In this document: piece by piece, positions 12,241-37,827 of the stretch
Position numbering within the stretch: the stretch's first letter is position 1
Layout of the letters: each line of letters begins with the position of its first letter
From: Kaistia defluvii
GTDB taxonomy: Bacteria; Pseudomonadota; Alphaproteobacteria; Rhizobiales; Kaistiaceae
Assembly: GCF_026343955.1 (NCBI RefSeq)
Contig: NZ_JAPKNI010000003.1
Span: forward strand, 124,001-188,000
Length of the DNA: 64,000 bases
Direction of reading: 5' to 3'
Program-made: the position numbers and the translations under genes
The notes under the pieces: generated by a model
What the model saw: the letters and a program-made list of their open reading frames with translations, nothing else
Told to the model about the DNA's origin: nothing
Database searches by the model: none

Positions 12241-13118
12241 TGGCCAAGGCATCTTCCATGGCGAAGACCAAGCACGGCGAGGGCGGCCTTTCCGCCCGCC
12301 TCGTCGGCGAGCACGGCATCGGCCTGTTCCTCTCGATCCTGTTCATCGCGCCGATCGCCTGGGCGATCCTGTCGACCTTCAAGCCGCCGGCCGAGGCGCG
12401 GCTGCCACCGATCCCGCCCTGGCCGACCACCGGCTTCTCGCTCGAAAATTATGTGACGCTCGACAGCTTCGGCGCCGGGCTCTGGCACTCGGCCCAGAAC
12501 AGCATCTTCGTCGCCGGTTCCAGCGTCGTGCTGACGGCGGTGATCAGCCTGCTGGCCGGCTATGGCTTCTCGCGCTTCCGCTTCCCGTTCAAGAACCTGT
12601 TCTTCATCCTGATCCTGTCGACGATCATGATCCCGTTCCAGTCGATCCTGACGCCGATCTTCCTGATCCTCTCCTGGCTCGGGCTGCAGAACACGCTGAC
12701 CGGGCTCATCCTCGTCTATGTGACACTGCAGATGCCGTTCTCGATCTTCATGATGCGCAACGCCTTCGACGCGGTGCCGAAGGAGATCGAGGAGGCCGCC
12801 CGCATCGACGGCGCCACCAATTTCGCGCTGCTGACCAAGGTGATGTTGCCGCTGGTCTGGCCCGGCGTGGTGACGGTGGGGCTCTTCGCCTTCCTCAACA
12901 CCTGGAACGAGTTCCTCGCCGCCCTCGTGCTGATGACCGACCAGGGCAAGTTCACCCTGCCGATCATGATGACCGCCGTGCAGTCCGGCCGCTTCGGCGC
13001 CGTCGACTGGGGCGCCGTGCAGGCGGGCGTCACCGTGATGATGATCCCCTGCCTGATCCTCTTCCTGCTGCTGCAGCGCTACTACATCCGCGGCCTGACG
13101 GCCGGCGCGGTGAAGTAG
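12237..13118 (+). CDS. Sugar ABC importer permease (MalG/UgpE type)
   Basis: This 293-residue protein has six transmembrane segments and the conserved loop E-I-E-E-A-A-R-I-D-G-A-T near residue 185, as in MalG-type permeases. It is translationally coupled to the preceding permease (ATGA overlap). No ATP-binding subunit is encoded in the operon, so the importer must borrow a shared MsmK/UgpC-type ATPase from elsewhere in the genome, which is common for this transporter group. Confidence 0.88.
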   Translation: MMAKASSMAKTKHGEGGLSARLVGEHGIGLFLSILFIAPIAWAILSTFKPPAEARLPPIPPWPTTGFSLENYVTLDSFGAGLWHSAQNSIFVAGSSVVLTAVISLLAGYGFSRFRFPFKNLFFILILSTIMIPFQSILTPIFLILSWLGLQNTLTGLILVYVTLQMPFSIFMMRNAFDAVPKEIEEAARIDGATNFALLTKVMLPLVWPGVVTVGLFAFLNTWNEFLAALVLMTDQGKFTLPIMMTAVQSGRFGAVDWGAVQAGVTVMMIPCLILFLLLQRYYIRGLTAGAVK

Positions 13119-30893: not shown

Positions 30894-31151
30894 CGTGTCC
30901 TCATCCTGCAGACCCAGTGATGAGCACGACCACCGGTGCCCGCGCCAGATGGCGCATGTCGTTCGACAACTCGGATCGGCTATGCCTAAAGCCGGACCGG
31001 GTGCGTCGCGACAAACGAAGCAGAATGGATAGTGCCCCCACGGCAATTACCGCCTACCAATAACATGTAGGCTGGCGCCAAAGGCCGATCAACGGGGGCG
31101 CTGCTATATGTCTTGCCATTAGCGGCTTTGGAGTTGCTCGCTTCTTAAGGA
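30894..31151. promoter_or_regulatory. CBASS promoter region
   Basis: These 258 bases between the CD-NTase start and the next open frame on the other strand must hold the CBASS promoter. I see a GAGGA ribosome site but no convincing promoter boxes or operator repeat. Local base composition is lower in GC than the backbone to its right. Confidence 0.4.
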
Positions 31152-31436
31152 ATGGCGAATATCGATCACATCGTCGAGAGAAAAATGGAAGAACTAGACC
31201 GCGTCACTCGGGAAGCCACGGCAGTTATTGATGTTATCTATTTTCATTTGCCTGTGGATGGAGGTGACCCTGTCTATAGAGAGCGCGTCTACTGTTACGA
31301 ACTGATATCATCAGATGAGGTCGATCTGCGCTCGGTTCTACCGGCAGCTCATCGCAAAAGCGGATCTCCGGTTTTCCGAGCATGTGGAAAGCCTGAAATC
31401 CGCAAAGAAGGGACGTTGAGATGGCACGGAGCCTGA
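31152..31436 (+). CDS. Chimeric open frame at the CBASS/toxin junction
   Basis: The first 60 or so residues (M-A-N-I-D-H-I-V-E-R-K...) look like a genuine protein start that I do not recognise. From about 31,336 the frame runs out of register through the remnant of a toxin gene, whose real frame is a different one. The simplest reading is a gene cut by recombination and continued by chance into toxin sequence. Confidence 0.3.
   Translation: MANIDHIVERKMEELDRVTREATAVIDVIYFHLPVDGGDPVYRERVYCYELISSDEVDLRSVLPAAHRKSGSPVFRACGKPEIRKEGTLRWHGA
31336..31419 (+). pseudogene. Remnant of a second HigB-like toxin (last 27 residues)
   Basis: In the frame ending at the TGA 31417-31419 the sequence reads F-Y-R-Q-L-I-A-K-A-D-L-R-F-S-E-H-V and ends in K-K-G-R, matching the C-terminus of the intact toxin at 25,458-25,823 (F-Y-R-R-M-V-A-K-A-D-F-R-F-S-E-H-L, ending K-K-G-K). 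The rest of the gene is absent. It is directly followed by an intact antitoxin. Confidence 0.85.
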
Positions 31437-31798
31437 ATGAAATCATCGCCGGGCTTCCTGCTGACGAACAGGCAGCTATCGAGGCGCGCTATCAGGAATT
31501 GCGGCAGGAGGTAGAGAGTCTGCGCGAGCTTCGCCAGATCGCCGGCAAGGCGCAGGAAGACATCGCCTCGGCCCTCAACATCAAGCAGCCGTCGGTGTCC
31601 AAGATCGAGAAGCAGGCGGATATGTATCTCTCGACGCTACGCAGCTATGTCGAAGCCATCGGCGGCAAGCTCGAACTCACGGTGAAGCTGCCATCGCATC
31701 CGGCGTTTCATCTCCATAGCCTGGGTGACATGACCATGGGCGAAAGCGCTGGCGTTCGCACTGTGGCCCGCCGTCGAAAGCAGGCCGGAACAAGGTGA
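31421..31798 (+). CDS. Orphan XRE-family antitoxin (second copy)
   Basis: This 125-residue protein shares most residues with the antitoxin at 25,825, including the helix-turn-helix A-Q-E-D-I-A-S-A-L-N-I-K-Q-P-S-V-S-K-I-E-K, but has a different C-terminus. Its own toxin is reduced to a short remnant directly upstream, so it is an orphan. It could still repress or neutralise the intact module on the other side of the CBASS operon. Confidence 0.82.
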   Translation: MARSLNEIIAGLPADEQAAIEARYQELRQEVESLRELRQIAGKAQEDIASALNIKQPSVSKIEKQADMYLSTLRSYVEAIGGKLELTVKLPSHPAFHLHSLGDMTMGESAGVRTVARRRKQAGTR

Positions 31799-31892
31799 GC
31801 AGTTGAGGTGAAGGGGGAAAGCCTTCCCCCTGGCCGGCGCCGAGGTCGCCGGCACACCCCCTTCTGCGGGGAGACCCCGCAACGCCCCCTGT

Positions 31893-31963
31893 AGAGTGAG
31901 AGTGCGGACGGGTTTTCCGTGACGGGTTGAGGACCGGGAGAGAGTCTTCCGGCGCCCGTCGCG
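31893..31963 (+). ncRNA. Repeated structured leader, copy A (before ardC)
   Basis: The copy starts with AGAGTGAGAGTGCGG and, 26 bases after the start of that box, forms a 9-bp stem CGTGACGGG (31918-31926) with CCCGTCGCG (31955-31963). The 28-base loop contains GGGAGAGAGTCTTCCGG with its own inner pairing. It ends ten bases before the ardC ATG. Two further copies precede the ParB-like gene and the gene at 36,369. I do not recognise it as a named RNA family; whether it acts as RNA or DNA is unknown. Confidence 0.65.
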
Positions 31964-31973
31964 GAGAACCGCG

Positions 31974-32927
31974 ATGTCCAGACATGATCGCACCCCTTGC
32001 ACCGGCGTCGACCGGGCGAACCTCTATGACGAAATCACCGACAAGATCATCGCCGAGCTGGAAGCCGGCCGCGTCCCGTGGGTGCAGCCTTGGGGAACCT
32101 CGGCTGCCAAAGCCCCGCTCGGCCTGCCGAAGAACGCCGCGACCGCGCGCAGCTACAGCGGCATCAATGTCCTGATCCTCTGGGGCGCCGTCGTCGAACA
32201 TGGCTTCCCCGGTCAGGGCTGGCTCACCTTTCGGCAGGCGCTGTCACTCGGCGGCCATGTCCGCAAGGGCGAGCGCGGCACCACCGTCGTCTATGCCGAT
32301 CGCTTCACGCCGGAGGATGAAAAGCGCCGCGCCTTCGAGGCCGGCGAGAAAGCGCAGGCGATCCCATTCCTCAAGCGCTTCACGGTGTTCAATACGGCGC
32401 AATGCGACGACCTGCCCGACGACATCGAGGCGATCGTGCCTCCGCCGCCGCCCGGCATGATCGAGCCCCAGGTCGAGGCGCTGATCAAGGCGACCGGCAT
32501 CGACTTCCGCATCGGTGGCAACAGGGCGTTCTACGTGCCGTCTCTCGACTATGTGCAGGTGCCGCCGCCGGCCGCCTATTTCGACCCGATCAACTGGCAC
32601 CGGACGGCGCTGCACGAACTCGGTCATGCCAGCGGCGCAGCGCACCGGCTGAACCGGAATCTCTCCGGCTCCTTCGGCTCGAAGCTCTATTCGGTCGAGG
32701 AAATCACGGCCGAATTGACCTCGGCATTCTGCTGCGCTTCGCTCGGCATCGTCCCGACCGTGCGCCATGCCGACTACATCGGCTCCTGGCTGGAAGTTCT
32801 GCGCGAGGACAATCGCGCCATCGTCCGCTGCGCTTCGCAGGCGAGCAAGGCGGCGGACTGGCTCTTGTCCTTCCTGCCGGATGCCGAGCATCTTCCCGAC
32901 ACCGACGATATGCGGAGGGCCGCGTGA
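31974..32927 (+). CDS. ardC: ArdC-like antirestriction protein (ssDNA-binding plus zincin domain)
   Basis: This 317-residue protein has an N-terminal DUF1738/ArdC domain (residues 10-130, W-V-Q-P-W... S-Y-S-G-I-N-V-L-I-L-W) that binds single-stranded DNA and a C-terminal metallopeptidase-like domain with H-E-L-G-H at 214-218. ArdC proteins are encoded on conjugative elements and protect incoming single-stranded DNA from restriction in the recipient. The stop overlaps the start of the next gene by one base. A structured leader lies just upstream. Confidence 0.85.
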   Translation: MSRHDRTPCTGVDRANLYDEITDKIIAELEAGRVPWVQPWGTSAAKAPLGLPKNAATARSYSGINVLILWGAVVEHGFPGQGWLTFRQALSLGGHVRKGERGTTVVYADRFTPEDEKRRAFEAGEKAQAIPFLKRFTVFNTAQCDDLPDDIEAIVPPPPPGMIEPQVEALIKATGIDFRIGGNRAFYVPSLDYVQVPPPAAYFDPINWHRTALHELGHASGAAHRLNRNLSGSFGSKLYSVEEITAELTSAFCCASLGIVPTVRHADYIGSWLEVLREDNRAIVRCASQASKAADWLLSFLPDAEHLPDTDDMRRAA

Positions 32928-33874
32928 TGAACGCGCTCGCTTTCCCCGGCTTCGTGCCCGATCCCTGCCTCGCAGCCGACATACAGTTGCGCGTGCTCAG
33001 TCTCGGTGCGGGCGTCCAGTCCACCACGCTCGCCCTGATGGCCGCTCATGGTGAAATCGGCCCCATGCCGGATTGCGCGATTTTCGCCGACACCGGCTGG
33101 GAGCCCAAGGCGGTCTATGAGCATCTCGCCTGGCTCAGAACGCCCAACGTCCTGCCGTTCCCCGTCCATATCGTGTCAGCCGGGAATTTGCGTGCAGACC
33201 TCATTGCGGCTTCGCGCGGTGAACGATGGGCTTCGATCCCGGCTTTCACCCGCACGGTCACGCCCGCCGGCTCCGAGCTGCCCGTCTATGATGAGGACGA
33301 TAACGGCGACCTCGTTCCCGTCGGCTCCCGCATTCTGAAAACCGAGCGCATCGGCGTCGGCATGATCCGCCGGCAATGCACCTCTTCCTACAAGATCGTG
33401 CCGATCCGCCGGAAGGTGCGCGATCTGCTCGGCATAGCCGGACGGCGCTCGCCTGGATCGCCGGTCTCCGAGCAATGGATCGGCATTTCACTCGATGAGG
33501 CGCTGCGCATGAAGCCGTCGTTCGAGGACTGGCAGGTCAACCGCTGGCCACTGATCGAGCGGGGCATGACCCGGCACGACTGCCTGCGCTGGCTGGAGCG
33601 CCACGACTATCCCCGGCCACCCAAGAGCGCCTGCATAGGCTGTCCCTTTCATTCGGATGCCGCATGGCGGAGCCTGCGCGACAATGATCCCGAGGCGTGG
33701 GACGACGCCGTGTCGCTCGACGCCATGATCCGCACTGGCCTTCGCGGCATTCGTGGCGAAGTCTATCTTCACCGCTCTGCGGTGCCGCTGGAGGAAGCGG
33801 ACCTGACGACGGCGGCCGGCCACGGCCAGCTCGATCTCTGGCAGAACGAATGTGAGGGGATGTGCGGAATCTGA
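32927..33874 (+). CDS. PAPS-reductase-like protein of the PP-loop ATPase family
   Basis: This 315-residue protein shows the PP-loop S-L-G-A-G-V-Q-S-T-T near residue 25, then I-F-A-D-T-G-W-E-P, and a C-terminal C-I-G-C-P-F-H motif, as in phosphoadenosine phosphosulfate reductase-like proteins found on rhizobial elements. Function here is unknown; relatives include DNA phosphorothioation (DndC) and sulfate activation enzymes, but no dnd genes are nearby. I chose the ATG overlapping the ardC stop. The open frame extends far upstream inside ardC without coding sense. Confidence 0.78.
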   Translation: MNALAFPGFVPDPCLAADIQLRVLSLGAGVQSTTLALMAAHGEIGPMPDCAIFADTGWEPKAVYEHLAWLRTPNVLPFPVHIVSAGNLRADLIAASRGERWASIPAFTRTVTPAGSELPVYDEDDNGDLVPVGSRILKTERIGVGMIRRQCTSSYKIVPIRRKVRDLLGIAGRRSPGSPVSEQWIGISLDEALRMKPSFEDWQVNRWPLIERGMTRHDCLRWLERHDYPRPPKSACIGCPFHSDAAWRSLRDNDPEAWDDAVSLDAMIRTGLRGIRGEVYLHRSAVPLEEADLTTAAGHGQLDLWQNECEGMCGI

Positions 33875-33957
33875 TCGGCTGAAAGCCGGAAATACGGAAA
33901 GCCGGATGCGTGCGTCTGCGACAATCCCGCGAGCATGGCGCGTGGCGCTGCCCTCCT

Positions 33958-34028
33958 AGAGTGAGAGGGCGGCGCTTCGCTTCGTGACGGATTGAGATCC
34001 GAGAGAGAGCCTCACGGAGTCCGTCATG
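33958..34028 (+). ncRNA. Repeated structured leader, copy B (before the ParB-like gene)
   Basis: AGAGTGAGAGGGCGG is followed by a stem CGTGACGGA (33983-33991) with TCCGTCATG (34020-34028). Against copy A the last pair changes from G-C to A-T and the third from T-G to T-A, both keeping pairing. The loop is again 28 bases and contains CCGAGAGAGAGCCTCACGG. It ends 11 bases before the chosen ParB-like start. Confidence 0.65.
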
Positions 34029-34039
34029 GAGTGAAGACC

Positions 34040-36214
34040 ATGGCCAAGGCCGCACGCAAGCAGACCCCCGCCGTCGCCCCAATGATCGAATTTTCGCGCG
34101 CGCGCGACATTCCGTTCAACCGTATCAGGCTTTCGGACAGCAATGTCCGCGAGATCGACGTCGAACAGGGCCTCGATGAGCTGACCCAGGACATCGACCG
34201 CCGCGAAGACCTCGTGATGGGCCTTAATGTCCGTGCCGTCCTCGACGATGCCGGCGCCGAGACCGGCGATTTCGAGACCCCGGCCGGCGGCAGGCGCTAC
34301 CGCGCTATCGCCCGCCTGGTCGCGGCAGGCCGCTTCCCCGCCGATGGCTTGGTGCCCTGCCTGGTCAAGAAGGCCAATGCCAAGACCTCGGCCGTCGACG
34401 ATTCCTACGCCGAGAACGTCATCCGGCTGGCGCTGCATCCGCTCGACCAGTTCAAGGCGTTCAAGCGCATGGTCGATGGCGGTATGTCCAAGGAGGAAGT
34501 CGCCGACGCCTATCGCACCACGCCGCGCTATATCGCCCAGCGGCTCCGGCTCGCCCGCGTCGCGCAGTCCCTGCTGGACGCCTATGCACGCAGCGAGATG
34601 ACTCTGGCGATGCTGGAGGCGTTCACCGTCAACCCGGATCATGCCCGACAGGAACAGGTCTGGGAGGCGATCCAGCGTTCGCACAATCGCCAGCCCTGGA
34701 ATATTCGCGATCTTCTCACCGAGACGACCGTGCCGACCGATGACAAGCGCGCGCAGTTCGTCGGAGTCGAAGCCTATGAGCAGGCCGGCGGCGTGATGCT
34801 GCGCGATCTCTTCTCCGACGAGGACGAAGGCTGGCTGGAAAACCCCGCGCTGCTCGACCGGCTCGTCTCCGACAAGCTCAAAGCCATCGCCGATGAAGTC
34901 GCGGCCGAAGGCTGGAAGTGGATCGAGGTCGATACCGATCTGCCCTACGGCCATGATCGCGGCCTTCGCGTCCTGACCGGCACGTTCCCCGATCTGAGCG
35001 AGGAGGAACGCGCCACCCGCGAGGCGCTGCGCGAGGAATATGAGCGGCTCGAGGCGGAACACGCCGATTACGACGAGTTGCCCGATGACATCGACACGCG
35101 CCTCGGCGAGATCGAGGCCGCGCTGAGCACCTTCGAGAACCGCCCGGCCATCTATGACGCTGCCGAGATCGCCCGCGCGGGCGTCTTCATCAGCATCGAC
35201 CGCGCCGGCGAGCTTGTCGTTGCGCGCGGCTACGTTCGTCCCGAGGACGAGGCGCTCGTCACCGTCGACGGCGAGGAGGATGCCGGCGATGGCGAGTCCG
35301 ATGCCGAAGGCGGCGCGGTCGCGGCCCAGGTCGGCGTGCAGCGCGCCGTCATCACCATCGGCGGCGAGCCGGTCGATGCGGAGGACGAGGAGGACGACAG
35401 CATCAAGCCGCTTCCCGAACGGCTGGTGATCGAACTCACCGCCCATCGCACGCTCGCGCTCCACGACGCGCTCGCCAACAACCCGCATGTGGCGATGACG
35501 GCGCTCCTGCACCGCATGGTCATGCAGCGTTATCACTACTCGGCGCCGACCGGCTGCATGGAGATCTCCGTGCGCCAGCAGCATTTCGGTGTGCAGGGCG
35601 GTGATCTCAGCGACACGCCCTCGGCCAAGGCCATCGACGAACGCTTCGACGCCTGGAAGGCCGATGTGCCCTCCGACGAAGGTGCGCTCTGGGACTGGAT
35701 CGCCGCGCTCGACGACGCCAGCCGGATGGCGTTGTTGGCTCATTGCGTCAGCTATGGCGTCAACGCCCTCTACGAGCGGCCCAATCCGCACAGCGGTTCC
35801 GGCGTCTCGCAGTTCGGACTAGATCGTCGCCTCTCCGGTGCCGATCGCATCGCCCGCGCTACCGGCTTCGACATGGTGGCCGACGCCGGCTGGAGGCCCA
35901 CGGTCGACAACTATCTCGGCCGCGTGACCAAGCCGCGCATCCTCGAAGCCGTCCGCGAAGGTGCGGGCGAGCGCGCCGCCCAGCTCATCAGCCATCTGAA
36001 GAAGGGCGACATGGCGAAGGAAGCCGAGCGCCTGCTGGCCGAAACCGGCTGGCTGCCCGAGCCGCTGCGCCTGGTGGACGTCGACGGTGACGCCGCGAAT
36101 GCTGGCGATGCCGGTGACGGCGAGACCTTGCCGGACTTCCTGGCAGGCGATGGTGACGAGGATGAAGCCGCTGAGGCTGAAGACGAGCACGTCGCGCTCG
36201 TCGCGGCCGACTGA
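34040..36214 (+). CDS. Large ParB-like protein
   Basis: This protein of 724 residues has an N-terminal ParB/Spo0J-like domain (about residues 15-140) with V-R-E, then T-P-A-G-G-R-R-Y-R-A-I-A and a helix-turn-helix around T-P-R-Y-I-A-Q-R-L-R-L. The remaining 500 residues are acidic and mostly helical with an Asp/Glu-rich stretch near 410-460. Proteins of this size are regular parts of rhizobial integrative elements, where they bind DNA or act as ParB-type nucleases; no partner ParA is encoded here. I chose the ATG at 34040, which directly follows the structured leader. Confidence 0.85.
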   Translation: MAKAARKQTPAVAPMIEFSRARDIPFNRIRLSDSNVREIDVEQGLDELTQDIDRREDLVMGLNVRAVLDDAGAETGDFETPAGGRRYRAIARLVAAGRFPADGLVPCLVKKANAKTSAVDDSYAENVIRLALHPLDQFKAFKRMVDGGMSKEEVADAYRTTPRYIAQRLRLARVAQSLLDAYARSEMTLAMLEAFTVNPDHARQEQVWEAIQRSHNRQPWNIRDLLTETTVPTDDKRAQFVGVEAYEQAGGVMLRDLFSDEDEGWLENPALLDRLVSDKLKAIADEVAAEGWKWIEVDTDLPYGHDRGLRVLTGTFPDLSEEERATREALREEYERLEAEHADYDELPDDIDTRLGEIEAALSTFENRPAIYDAAEIARAGVFISIDRAGELVVARGYVRPEDEALVTVDGEEDAGDGESDAEGGAVAAQVGVQRAVITIGGEPVDAEDEEDDSIKPLPERLVIELTAHRTLALHDALANNPHVAMTALLHRMVMQRYHYSAPTGCMEISVRQQHFGVQGGDLSDTPSAKAIDERFDAWKADVPSDEGALWDWIAALDDASRMALLAHCVSYGVNALYERPNPHSGSGVSQFGLDRRLSGADRIARATGFDMVADAGWRPTVDNYLGRVTKPRILEAVREGAGERAAQLISHLKKGDMAKEAERLLAETGWLPEPLRLVDVDGDAANAGDAGDGETLPDFLAGDGDEDEAAEAEDEHVALVAAD

Positions 36215-36221
36215 TCGAAAC

Positions 36222-36253
36222 ATGCGCCCCATCATCCGGTGGGGCGCATTTTT
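36222..36253 (+). terminator. Intrinsic terminator after the ParB-like gene
   Basis: ATGCGCCCCA (36222-36231) pairs perfectly with TGGGGCGCAT (36240-36249) and is followed by TTTT. It ends the ParB-like transcript; the next gene therefore needs its own promoter, placed near the third leader copy. Confidence 0.85.
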
Positions 36254-36277
36254 CATGCTGGCCACAGCCAACCTTCC

Positions 36278-36357
36278 AGAGTGGAGAGAGGCAGAGGCCG
36301 GACGGCCTGGCCGTGACGGGTTACGAGGTGGAGGAGAGGCTTCCGCCGACCGTCGCG
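36278..36357 (+). ncRNA. Repeated structured leader, copy C (before the 36,369 gene)
   Basis: AGAGTGGAGAGAGGC is followed by a stem CGTGACGG (36312-36319) with CCGTCGCG (36350-36357), eight base pairs; the ninth position is unpaired G against A. The loop is 30 bases and again holds a GGAGGAGAGG purine run with CTTCC. It ends 11 bases before the downstream ATG, the same spacing as in copies A and B. Confidence 0.6.
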
Positions 36358-36368
36358 GAGTGAATCCC

Positions 36369-36926
36369 ATGATCTTTTCTCGCCAATCCCGCGTCGCCTC
36401 GATCGGCGCCATTCTCGCCCGCCACGTCCTGCCGACCCTGCAGCGCGCACAGAAATTCCCGTTGCGCATCTCCTGCATCGGCACCGCCAGCTACGACGGC
36501 AGCAATGAAGCCGATGGTTTCGACCATATCCTCGTCATCGGCGAATGCCCGTCGCCCGAAGAGGCCATGTCGCTCGCCGGCCGCCGTCTCGCAGGCGGCG
36601 ACATCCGCGCCGGAACCGACGACATGCTGCGCTTTCGCCCGCGCATCATGGTCATTCAGGATTGCGATCAGGGGCTCGTGCTCGCCGGAACGATCCGAGC
36701 CGGGATTATCCTCTGGCAGCAGCCGGTCGCATCCGACGCCGAGGCCAGCCAGATCGTGACCGAGGCCAGCAAACTGCGTGGCGCCGCCTTCGCCGCGGCC
36801 GGTCGCGGCGAGCACGGCCCGGCTCGCGAATATCGCTACCGCGCCAGCCAACTCGAAGCGCGGCTGGTCGATGCGCCGTGGCGCGAGACGGTCGCCGCGC
36901 TTCTGCGATTGCCGCTCGCCGCCTGA
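36369..36926 (+). CDS. Conserved element protein of unknown function
   Basis: This 185-residue soluble protein has no signal peptide or membrane segment. Features are I-S-C-I-G-T-A-S-Y-D-G-S-N-E-A-D-G-F-D-H-I-L-V-I-G-E-C-P and a helical C-terminal half rich in Ala and Arg. I do not recognise a domain. The ATG at 36369 follows GCGGAG within the leader. It is placed between the ParB-like gene and another unknown gene, as in the backbone of similar elements. Confidence 0.7.
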   Translation: MIFSRQSRVASIGAILARHVLPTLQRAQKFPLRISCIGTASYDGSNEADGFDHILVIGECPSPEEAMSLAGRRLAGGDIRAGTDDMLRFRPRIMVIQDCDQGLVLAGTIRAGIILWQQPVASDAEASQIVTEASKLRGAAFAAAGRGEHGPAREYRYRASQLEARLVDAPWRETVAALLRLPLAA

Positions 36927-36995
36927 CTTTCCGCCACGCTCTTTCATCCATTCGACCCGGCCATGCGCCGGGTTTCGTCGTTTCAGGAGCCAGTC

Positions 36996-37412
36996 ATGGC
37001 CGAATATTTCACCCGCTTTTCCTGCCTGCTCGACGTGGGCACGCCCGACAATGCCGCTCGCGCGCTCGAAATCTACAACACGCTCGCCGCCGAGAACGCC
37101 GCCGAAGACCCGCCATCGGAAAGCTTTCTCCTTTCGATCGAGTCCGAGCATGGCGGCACGCAGCTCTGGATGCGCGACGATGCCACCGGCGATCCCGCGC
37201 GTGTCATCCAGTTCGTCCAGCGGTGCGCGGCGGCGTTCGGTCTCTCCGGCCGCTGGGGCTTCCAATATGCCAACACCTGTTCGCGGCCGCGCCTCGACGG
37301 CTTCGGCGGCGGCGCGCATGTCCTCGATCTCGCCACCGGCGAAACCATCGCCTGGATCTACACCGATGGCTGGCTTGCCCAGGTTCTCGATGGAGGCGCC
37401 CCCGATTCCTGA
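36996..37412 (+). CDS. Conserved element protein of unknown function (138 residues)
   Basis: This 138-residue protein begins M-A-E-Y-F-T-R-F-S-C-L-L-D-V-G-T and ends in a G-G-G-A-H-V-L-D-L-A-T-G-E-T-I-A-W-I segment. CAGGAG precedes the ATG at seven bases. A hairpin (ACCCGGC with GCCGGGT, 36955-36973) just upstream could end the preceding transcript. It overlaps the start of the frameshifted gene that follows. No function can be assigned. Confidence 0.68.
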   Translation: MAEYFTRFSCLLDVGTPDNAARALEIYNTLAAENAAEDPPSESFLLSIESEHGGTQLWMRDDATGDPARVIQFVQRCAAAFGLSGRWGFQYANTCSRPRLDGFGGGAHVLDLATGETIAWIYTDGWLAQVLDGGAPDS

Positions 37413-37650
37413 GATCATCGAAACGACCCTCTATCGGCTCGACGAGCTTTCCGATGACGCCAAGGACAATGCGCGGGCCTCGTATCGTGAAGGCTGTTTC
37501 GACCACGACCGGTATGAAACCGTCTCGGGGATTTCCAGCGAATCGCGGAAATCCTGGGCATCTCCCTCAAAATTCGGCTCGGCCGCCTCATGCTGGATCG
37601 CCTACCTCGCCGGATGGAAGCCGCGCGGAGAGCTGGATTTCCTTGTATAA
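37390..37650 (+). pseudogene. Frameshifted conserved element gene
   Basis: The frame starts P-P-I-P-E-I-I-E-T-T-L-Y-R-L-D-E-L-S-D-D-A-K and keeps protein character to Y-E-T-V-S-G. After about 37,530 it turns to poor sequence, while the next frame reads D-F-Q-R-I-A-E-I-L-G-I-S-L-K-I, a natural continuation. One base has been gained or lost there. Decay continues downstream. Confidence 0.7.
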
Positions 37651-37827
37651 CGGTGAGGTCGCCCCAACCTTGCAGGCAGGTGCGCAGAGAAACACTACGG
37701 GCCGCCGATACGCTTGCAGTGCAGAGCCAAGAACGACGAAGCGGAGAACTACATCTACTCCATATCCCTCTAGAACCCTCTTTTGCGACAACGAGGTGAA
37801 ATGCTCCTTTTGCTGGACGATGAAGCC
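37651..37827. other. Degraded junction between element backbone and cargo
   Basis: These 177 bases hold no complete gene. One short frame on the plus strand (C-A-E-K-H-Y-G-P-P... A-E-N-Y-I-Y-S-I-S-L, then stop at about 37,779) looks like the end of a lost gene. It marks the change from ParB-type backbone genes to the redox cargo, possibly a cargo insertion point. Confidence 0.4.

Follow-up and report, generated by a model that had tools for sequence, protein, structure and literature searches.

The locus analysed here raises the question of what control is shared by three genes that carry the same structured sequence immediately ahead of their start codons. It lies in a 64,000-nucleotide (nt) stretch of the Kaistia defluvii genome (contig NZ_JAPKNI010000003.1, positions 124,001 to 188,000 of the forward strand; hereafter the window), and the genes encode an ArdC antirestriction protein, a ParB-like protein and a product of about 185 amino acids (aa) with no family assignment (hypC). 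The initial annotation had described the three leaders and proposed a control common to backbone genes of a mobile element, exerted on translation, by attenuation, or through a DNA-level site bound by an element protein. The computational analysis outlines a conserved two-tier hairpin with an mRNA-strand pairing signature, which probably operates as a cis-acting translational leader masking the Shine-Dalgarno (SD) sequence.

Three copies of one leader family

A repeat search recovered the three leaders as copies of one 74-nt family, with copies B and C 72% and 74% identical to copy A. All share the same layout, in which a AGAGNNAGAG box is followed by an outer stem of about 11 base pairs (bp), an inner hairpin whose loop contains AGAG, a GGAG SD sequence and an ATG. 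The leaders and the genes behind them are located in the window as follows.

31893..31902, + strand: AGAGNNAGAG box of copy A, read in the sequence
31917..31964, + strand: hairpin of copy A, outer stem 31917-31927 / 31954-31964 (RNAfold, covariance model R1 at 92.6 bits, covariation)
31934-31940 / 31946-31952, + strand: inner stem of copy A, loop 31941-31945 (AGAGT)
31963..31966, + strand: GGAG SD sequence of ardC, its first two G within the outer stem
31974..32927, + strand: ArdC antirestriction gene (Pfam ArdcN and MPTase-PolyVal)
33958..33967, + strand: AGAGNNAGAG box of copy B (sequence, repeat search)
33982..34029, + strand: hairpin of copy B, outer stem 33982-33992 / 34019-34029 (RNAfold, R1)
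33999-34005 / 34011-34017, + strand: inner stem of copy B, with one mismatch, loop 34006-34010 (AGAGC)
34028..34031, + strand: GGAG SD sequence of the ParB-like gene
34040..36214, + strand: ParB-like gene, 724 aa (Pfam HTH_ParB; NCBIfam ParB matches below cut-off)
36287..36296, + strand: AGAGNNAGAG box of copy C (sequence, repeat search)
36311..36358, + strand: hairpin of copy C with the inner hairpin inside, outer stem 36311-36321 / 36348-36358, one mismatch
36357..36360, + strand: GGAG SD sequence of hypC
36369..36926, + strand: hypC, about 185 aa, no family

The outer stem of copy A, with arms CCGTGACGGGT and GCCCGTCGCGG, is fully paired; the stem proposed in the initial annotation is present as described, but its length is about 11 bp and not 9. 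Two base changes between copies A and B had been read as paired, and this holds for the change from G-C to A-T, whereas the change from T-G to T-A alters one side only. Copy C keeps its stem with a single mismatch, much as had been noted. The enclosed 28-30 bases, on the other hand, do not form a plain loop: the outer stem encloses an asymmetric purine-rich internal loop, followed by an inner stem of 7 pairs with an AGAG(N) pentaloop. The GGAG sequence overlaps the 3' arm of the outer stem, at its base, and the stem ends 9, 10 and 10 nt before the ATG of ardC (31974), the ParB-like gene (34040) and hypC (36369), respectively.

RNAfold z-scores for the stem region of copies A, B and C are -4.55, -3.59 and -2.43. 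Their scores under the covariance model R1 (92.6, 79.8 and 74.9 bits) are partly high by construction, all three copies being in the 79-sequence seed of the model. The next-best R1 match in the window reaches 19.8 bits, and the outer stem is unformed there.

Conservation of the fold

Further copies were collected with a search pattern that contained neither the box nor the ATG and that fixed the outer stem in part; first, hand-made patterns had missed copies, as loop sequence and length vary. Copies were left out when a locus end lay within 100 nt on the 5' side or within 40 nt on the 3' side, and those showing no difference between 20 nt ahead of the core and 5 nt past it were merged into one, which gave 287 distinct copies. 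Representatives were defined at identity cuts of 80% (79 sequences, from which R1 was built) and 82% (150 sequences, leaving out R1 matches below 42 bits, L257, which is cut at a contig end, and L261_3807).

Among the 79 representatives, 97.6% of 1419 pair cells form and 10 of 18 pairs are changed on both sides. None of 500 shuffles reaches any of five covariation measures, and slid partners pair in only 33-48% of cells. When a home-made, tree-aware null in the manner of R-scape was applied to the 150 sequences, which include divergent copies, a single pair reached significance among all 3916 pairs (E=0.03). When the test is confined to the 18 pairs of the structure, four reach E<=0.05 in this set (three inner, one outer), and for 14 of the 18 at most 7 of 300 pair-specific nulls do as well. 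In divergent copies found with the model (L253, L256 and L258), the outer stem is rebuilt with other bases, as in CGAAGGG/CCCTTCG (L253) and CGACAGG/CCTGTCG (L256). The inner stem therefore shows the covariation among homologues that the initial annotation had called for, and the outer stem shows it in divergent copies.

The wobble pairs identify the folded strand. Read on the sense strand, G.U pairs outnumber A.C combinations by 377 to 40 over all pairs, and by 77 to 6 at the two inner pairs on which the search pattern placed no constraint; a third tallied pair, 39-66, was excluded from this latter count because it is nearly always U-G. An excess of G.U on the sense strand indicates a folded mRNA, since a fold of the opposite strand would show the reverse.

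Conservation extends to unpaired sequence. The AGAGNNAGAG box is found with at most one mismatch in 284 of the 287 copies, compared with 4 of 287 shuffled flanks. Of the 287 copies, 263 carry the AGAG box without any change, and the loop belongs to the parts of the alignment with almost no variation. Two further features were considered around the box. A hairpin surrounding the AGAG box may occur in many ParB and some ardC copies but is not general (best stem score, mean 17.6 versus 15.3 with flanks dealt among copies). An upstream open reading frame was rejected: the NN of the box reads TG, giving GTG, in only 146 of 284 copies, and box and stem are separated by 15, 16 or 17 nt in 277 of 284, which does not maintain one frame.

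The hairpin pairs the Shine-Dalgarno sequence

The first ATG lies 9-12 nt past the stem in 281 of the 287 copies, compared with 11 of 287 shuffled sequences, and the same spacing was seen in 206 of 207 copies of an earlier set. Within the 150 representatives, the bases facing the first two G of the SD sequence are pyrimidines in 139 and 147 cases, in a flank with 44% pyrimidine; a U faces the A in 102 of 150, and a C or U faces the last G in 108 of 150. Partition-function folds of 116 leaders (those with GGAG among 120 drawn from the 287) give a median probability of 0.06 that the GGAG is unpaired, compared with 0.26 at 150 control starts (p=2.5e-10), these being 150 folded sites out of 182 taken from mechanical open reading frames that may include false genes. 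The SD sequence is paired within a conserved helix, as expected of an SD-sequestering translational leader. The masking and the constant spacing are results of direct computation, as are the fold and its sense-strand pairing.

Distribution of the leaders

A BLASTN search with copy A (131 nt) returned matches in 202 of 72,556 plasmid records, assigned by first organism name mainly to Pseudosulfitobacter (70), Mesorhizobium (26), Bradyrhizobium (13) and Paracoccus (12), with Sinorhizobium also represented. A pattern scan of genome contigs identified at least 120 stretches; of 80 titles listed, 77 bear names that we take to be alphaproteobacterial, one reads Verrucomicrobia and two read Proteobacteria only. 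The class-wide pattern search matched 19 of 385 genomes, part of them through chance-like matches with three mismatches. With R1, matches were obtained in 35 of 151 relatives (E<=0.01), in 65 of 297 genomes of the order (E<=0.001) and in 34 of 398 genomes of a phylum sample (E<=0.001), the K. defluvii genome being included each time. All 34 belong to the same order or class as the window, in a sample that gives no figure for genomes from other classes. Membership of this first form is doubtful for R1 matches that score less than about 30 bits (window position 12254, L243_5367 ahead of a RadC-like gene, L246 and two in L247).

Six strong first-form (type I) copies occur in the K. defluvii genome itself: the window, which is part of contig 15, has three, and contig 16 has the others. 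In another genome of the order (G498, loci L166, L236 and L237), two contigs together show 13 type I matches at E<=0.01, and divergent leader forms precede ArdC, ParB and DUF2958. A full leader (L097:3016-3061) precedes an ArdC-like frame (76-aa match) on a contig titled Verrucomicrobia bacterium LP2A, reflecting either cross-phylum transfer or a mislabelled contig. An IMG/VR contig (L033) has two leaders with ParB-like and strawberry-notch genes and, although it comes from a viral collection, resembles a conjugative element more than a virus. In another locus (L255:7184-7253, - strand), a match to the Rfam RT-13 RNA above the gathering score lies inside a leader-bearing region.

A second leader form

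A second, related form comprises the box, a GGGACGGG stem, a GAGAGAGCGC loop and a CTCTCC sequence beside the SD. It was found before genes for a strawberry-notch helicase (Pfam AAA_34 and Helicase_C_4) in L271, L191, L236 and L244, and before one for an ArdB/KlcA-type antirestriction protein (PF03230) in L244. A provisional model, R2, was built from 33 of 41 pattern hits, with eight omitted by hand, and 85.3% of its cells pair. At E<=0.001, R2 matches 21 of 151 relatives, all of them among the 35 that carry the first form (hypergeometric 9e-17). Two weak R1 matches (L244_8709 and L271_5876) are in fact second-form sites, and one second-form site in G458 is also a weak R1 match. In K. defluvii, the second form occurs on contigs 15 and 16; on contig 15 it lies at 204 kb, which is 16 kb past the window. 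In many copies, such as L271:5876-5978 (- strand), the loop sequence GAGAGCG is complementary to a CGCTCTC beside the SD, and this complementarity could possibly form a pseudoknot or an alternative fold that the first form lacks.

Genes preceded by the leaders and their element

The 328 frames downstream of leaders (286 copies from the pattern and 42 matches from the model, some of them doubtful, with at least one, L208/L262, counted twice) encode ParB-like proteins (140), ArdC (111), DUF932 (43) and an unknown family (17), the remaining 17 being other or too short. DUF2958 has a leader in a single case (L236) and AlpA in two distinct copies. The first place ahead of ParB is held by ArdC in 50 locus groups and by DUF932 in 26. 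A common upstream motif accompanies 68 of 104 ArdC and 22 of 35 DUF932 leaders, and only 2 of 122 ParB leaders. ArdC and DUF932 alternate under the same upstream motif, indicating that genes are exchanged behind a leader module that is retained. Upstream of many of these first-position leaders, additional inverted repeats (GGGGAAAGCCTTCCCC, TGCGGGGAGACCCCGCA and CCCCGCAACGCCCC) extend over about 100 nt, as in window positions 31811-31890. Among ParB leaders, 104 of 116 lie behind a co-directional gene of four families, 76 of them within 150 nt. This arrangement resembles that of an operon whose genes are each controlled separately at translation.

Other features of the window around the leaders are listed below.

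32924..33874, + strand: gene between ardC and the ParB-like gene, no Pfam and no NCBIfam match
36222..36249, + strand: terminator-like hairpin with T-run between the ParB-like gene and copy C (terminator scan)
36996..37412, + strand: hypD, backbone gene (tblastn)
37405..37592, + strand: 5' fragment of a backbone gene, 63 of 214 residues in two pieces (tblastn)

The gene at 32924..33874, for which no family match was obtained, is presumed to resemble PAPS reductases. The hypC product has no fold match in the PDB at E<=0.001 (AlphaFold model of mean predicted local distance difference test score 73.6, from 7 sequences), and the R1 search returned no match ahead of hypD. Terminator-like sites in the stretch number 2, where shuffles lead one to expect 3.8. 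Such hairpins lie upstream of 4 of 13 hypC, 3 of 104 ArdC, 2 of 122 ParB, 0 of 35 DUF932 and 0 of 5 other leaders, with 39 among 2000 random windows; upstream terminators were consequently rejected as a general part of the system, although they may belong to it for hypC.

The element backbone was read by comparison with the annotated plasmids pMC4 (Sphingopyxis indica) and pYP1 (Ketogulonicigenium vulgare). Its order is ArdC - DUF2958 - ParB - ... - strawberry notch - toprim - DUF2493 - DUF736 - DUF6499/DUF2285 - RepA - ParA - ... - DUF3363 relaxase - TraG - trb. The names of its genes match those of the ICEMlSym(R7A)-type core of Mesorhizobium, given in PMC8627217 as trb, traG, traF, transglycosylase and DUF736, the two being likened by names and not by sequence. 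In four elements, three of them close relatives, the leader genes lie upstream of, and co-oriented with, the DUF3363 relaxase.

On contig 15 the element is split: the backbone stops in the 214-aa gene at 37.6 kb of the window and picks up again at the helicase gene, around position 204 kb of the contig. The missing part, from helicase to trb, was found about 42 kb further on (L274/L275, contig 15, 188000-227800), and the DNA between the two halves looks like an insertion or cargo. A second element in the same genome (L271 and L276; contig 16, 388000-427900) has backbone proteins 86-100% identical to those of the Sphingopyxis plasmid pMC4, a similarity that suggests recent transfer.

Comparison with known systems

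The initial annotation had not recognised a named RNA class in the leader, and this agrees with the comparison against Rfam 15. No Rfam 15 family reaches its gathering score in the window, the three matches in 31000-37500 having E values of 5-8, far below cut-off, and a search of seven other loci returned nothing at the leaders. Literature titles did not name such a leader in a search that most subscription journals and bioRxiv lie outside, so that an earlier description is possible.

The radC RNA motif precedes radC, integrase and antirestriction genes. It is listed as RF01754, a structured RNA candidate of Proteobacteria, in a table row of PMC2864571. RF01754 gave no match in the window or at the six type I sites, and its matches in the K. 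defluvii genome are all below cut-off and elsewhere. Seven radC-motif loci, from 4 of 299 genomes, present several hairpins and, by eye, no AGAG box; the best R1 match in them (18.6 bits) is on the other strand and outside the motif. STAXI (RF01728) appears in the same source (PMC2864571) as a structure that recurs near genes for SSB, topoisomerase, antirestriction proteins and integrase; it consists of tandem pseudoknots, is listed for Enterobacteriales, and has no match in the window or in the seven loci.

The nearest known system in kind is, by analogy, EGeRS1 of the pLS20 family, described in PMC8708921 as a conserved structured sequence directly 5' of the ribosome-binding site of establishment operons, including ardC, with its mechanism open. 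EGeRS1 and the present leaders have in common a conserved sequence 5' of the ribosome-binding site of several genes of one element, ardC among them. Compared by description only, EGeRS1 spans about 420-750 bp in Bacillus with predicted structures, whereas the leaders described here measure about 75 nt, overlap the SD sequence and belong to Alphaproteobacteria. EGeRS2 and Reg of p576 define an establishment regulon that includes ardC and is off in the donor; there, unlike in an RNA leader, a ribbon-helix-helix protein represses transcription at DNA operators. The Frpo and ssi elements share with the leaders a position as hairpins 5' of establishment or anti-defence genes of conjugative elements (PMC11541004), but they are DNA promoters for the transferred strand, whereas the leaders have a folded-mRNA signature. 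The main text of PMC11541004 contains no mention of Alphaproteobacteria, ArdC, hairpin or stem-loop.

Alternative explanations

The strongest rival to a regulated translational leader is plain insulation, in which the hairpin, constitutive and with no trans factor, would only stop the translation of read-through transcripts or stabilise the mRNA. IS10 fold-back leaders prevent translation from read-through transcripts, and both the masked SD sequence and the location of the leaders inside gene strings fit this role. EGeRS1 of pLS20, moreover, blocks read-through expression and does so without a strong promoter (PMC8708921). An insulator would nonetheless have no need of conserved unpaired sequence, yet the AGAG box is mostly exact and the loop nearly invariant. 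The scan for promoter-like sites in window 31000-37700, based on a linear sigma-70 consensus only, found 0 with 0.9 expected by chance, which also counts against it. Taken together, we regard insulation alone as unlikely. Attenuation or antitermination of transcription, one branch of the initial proposal, draws on the leader position and on the terminator-like hairpins before copy C and some other hypC leaders. Just 5 of 287 copies, however, have a TTTT within 12 nt after the stem, and 16 have at least four T in 10 nt. Terminators ahead of the leaders are no general feature, and the fixed SD and ATG spacing would be left unexplained, making this mechanism very improbable.

Two explanations place the function in DNA. 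Frpo is a promoter for transcribing the transferred strand, with its fold on the template strand, and an equivalent on the entering T-strand would agree with a hairpin repeated before each of several establishment-type genes, antirestriction included, and with the co-orientation of leader genes and relaxase described above, which fits a possible leading-region location. In other systems, Frpo or Frpo-like candidates have been described ahead of genes of this kind (PMC11541004). The -35 and -10 elements of such a promoter would lie in its folded stem, to which an outer stem of about 11 bp corresponds here. The G.U pairs of the sense strand would nevertheless become A.C mismatches on the template strand, taking the transferred strand as we infer it; the stem overlaps the SD sequence and ends so close to the ATG that little room is left for a 5' untranslated region, and the linear-consensus scan detected no promoter. 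We accordingly give such a promoter very little credence, comparable to that of attenuation. An operator in duplex DNA, bound by an element protein, would account for an inverted sequence repeated near several genes, and was the third branch of the initial proposal; sense-strand G.U pairs and stems rebuilt in other sequence are not expected of it, and the G.U to A.C asymmetry leaves it the least probable of these readings.

A putative establishment regulon

The leaders are thus best explained, with reasonable though not high confidence, as cis-acting, SD-masking translational mRNA elements of an establishment and anti-defence regulon in ICEMlSym-like elements and plasmids. The translational branch of the shared control first proposed for the backbone genes is favoured by the SD pairing, the ATG spacing, the sense-strand G.U pairs and the position in gene strings. 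The gene set suggests that the hairpin may function as a switch, that a trans factor may read AGAG and that the timing may correspond to entry into the recipient. In a cell with an established element, the folded leader would allow little or no translation of each cistron, also from read-through mRNA. A factor, probably an element-encoded RNA-binding protein and possibly a small RNA or host protein, would read the unpaired AGAG motifs of box and loop and shift the fold, and the leader genes would then be made together just after the element enters a new cell. Such a coordinated release at entry would make the leaders the defining feature of the proposed regulon. ArdC of R388 is needed in recipient and not in donor cells, according to PMC7213743. 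DUF736 was considered as the candidate RNA-binding protein and dropped, as none was found in the subset of loci examined.

Several results weigh against this reading or reduce its support. The probability that the GGAG is unpaired is below 0.5 in 85% of control starts too, compared with 97% of leaders, and masking alone is no proof of a switch because SD sequences are often paired in these GC-rich genomes. Under the tree-aware null, no pair reaches E<=0.05 over all pairs in the 79 sequences (best 0.48), and four pairs (29-76, 31-74, 36-69 and 39-66) are unsupported, being matched by 46 to 257 of 300 nulls. Most outer-stem pairs vary on one side only. The 18-pair structure was derived with RNAalifold from the same alignment and the outer stem is partly set by the search pattern, so that most weight falls on the inner stem and on the divergent copies. 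L261_3807 scores 56.8 bits and yet has no ATG at the usual place. For R2, two of the five measures do not rise above shuffles (104/500 and 183/500), the slid control at +3 has 43 cells changed on both sides against 36, and the second-form G.U to A.C ratio is only 97:55. No trans factor was found.

A broader RNA-level establishment programme, in which two related SD-masking leaders, read at their AGAG motifs by an element-encoded RNA-binding factor, would hold antirestriction and other entry genes silent in the donor and release them in concert in the recipient, is put forward more tentatively. The timing of antirestriction genes in the new cell is known for few systems, which use DNA repressors or single-stranded promoters. 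If the proposed role is true, the leader genes of no known role (those for ParB-like, DUF932 and DUF2958 proteins and the 185-aa product) would become candidate anti-defence genes, and a compact RNA family present in many alphaproteobacterial genomes and plasmids would offer a route to anti-defence genes via their leader.

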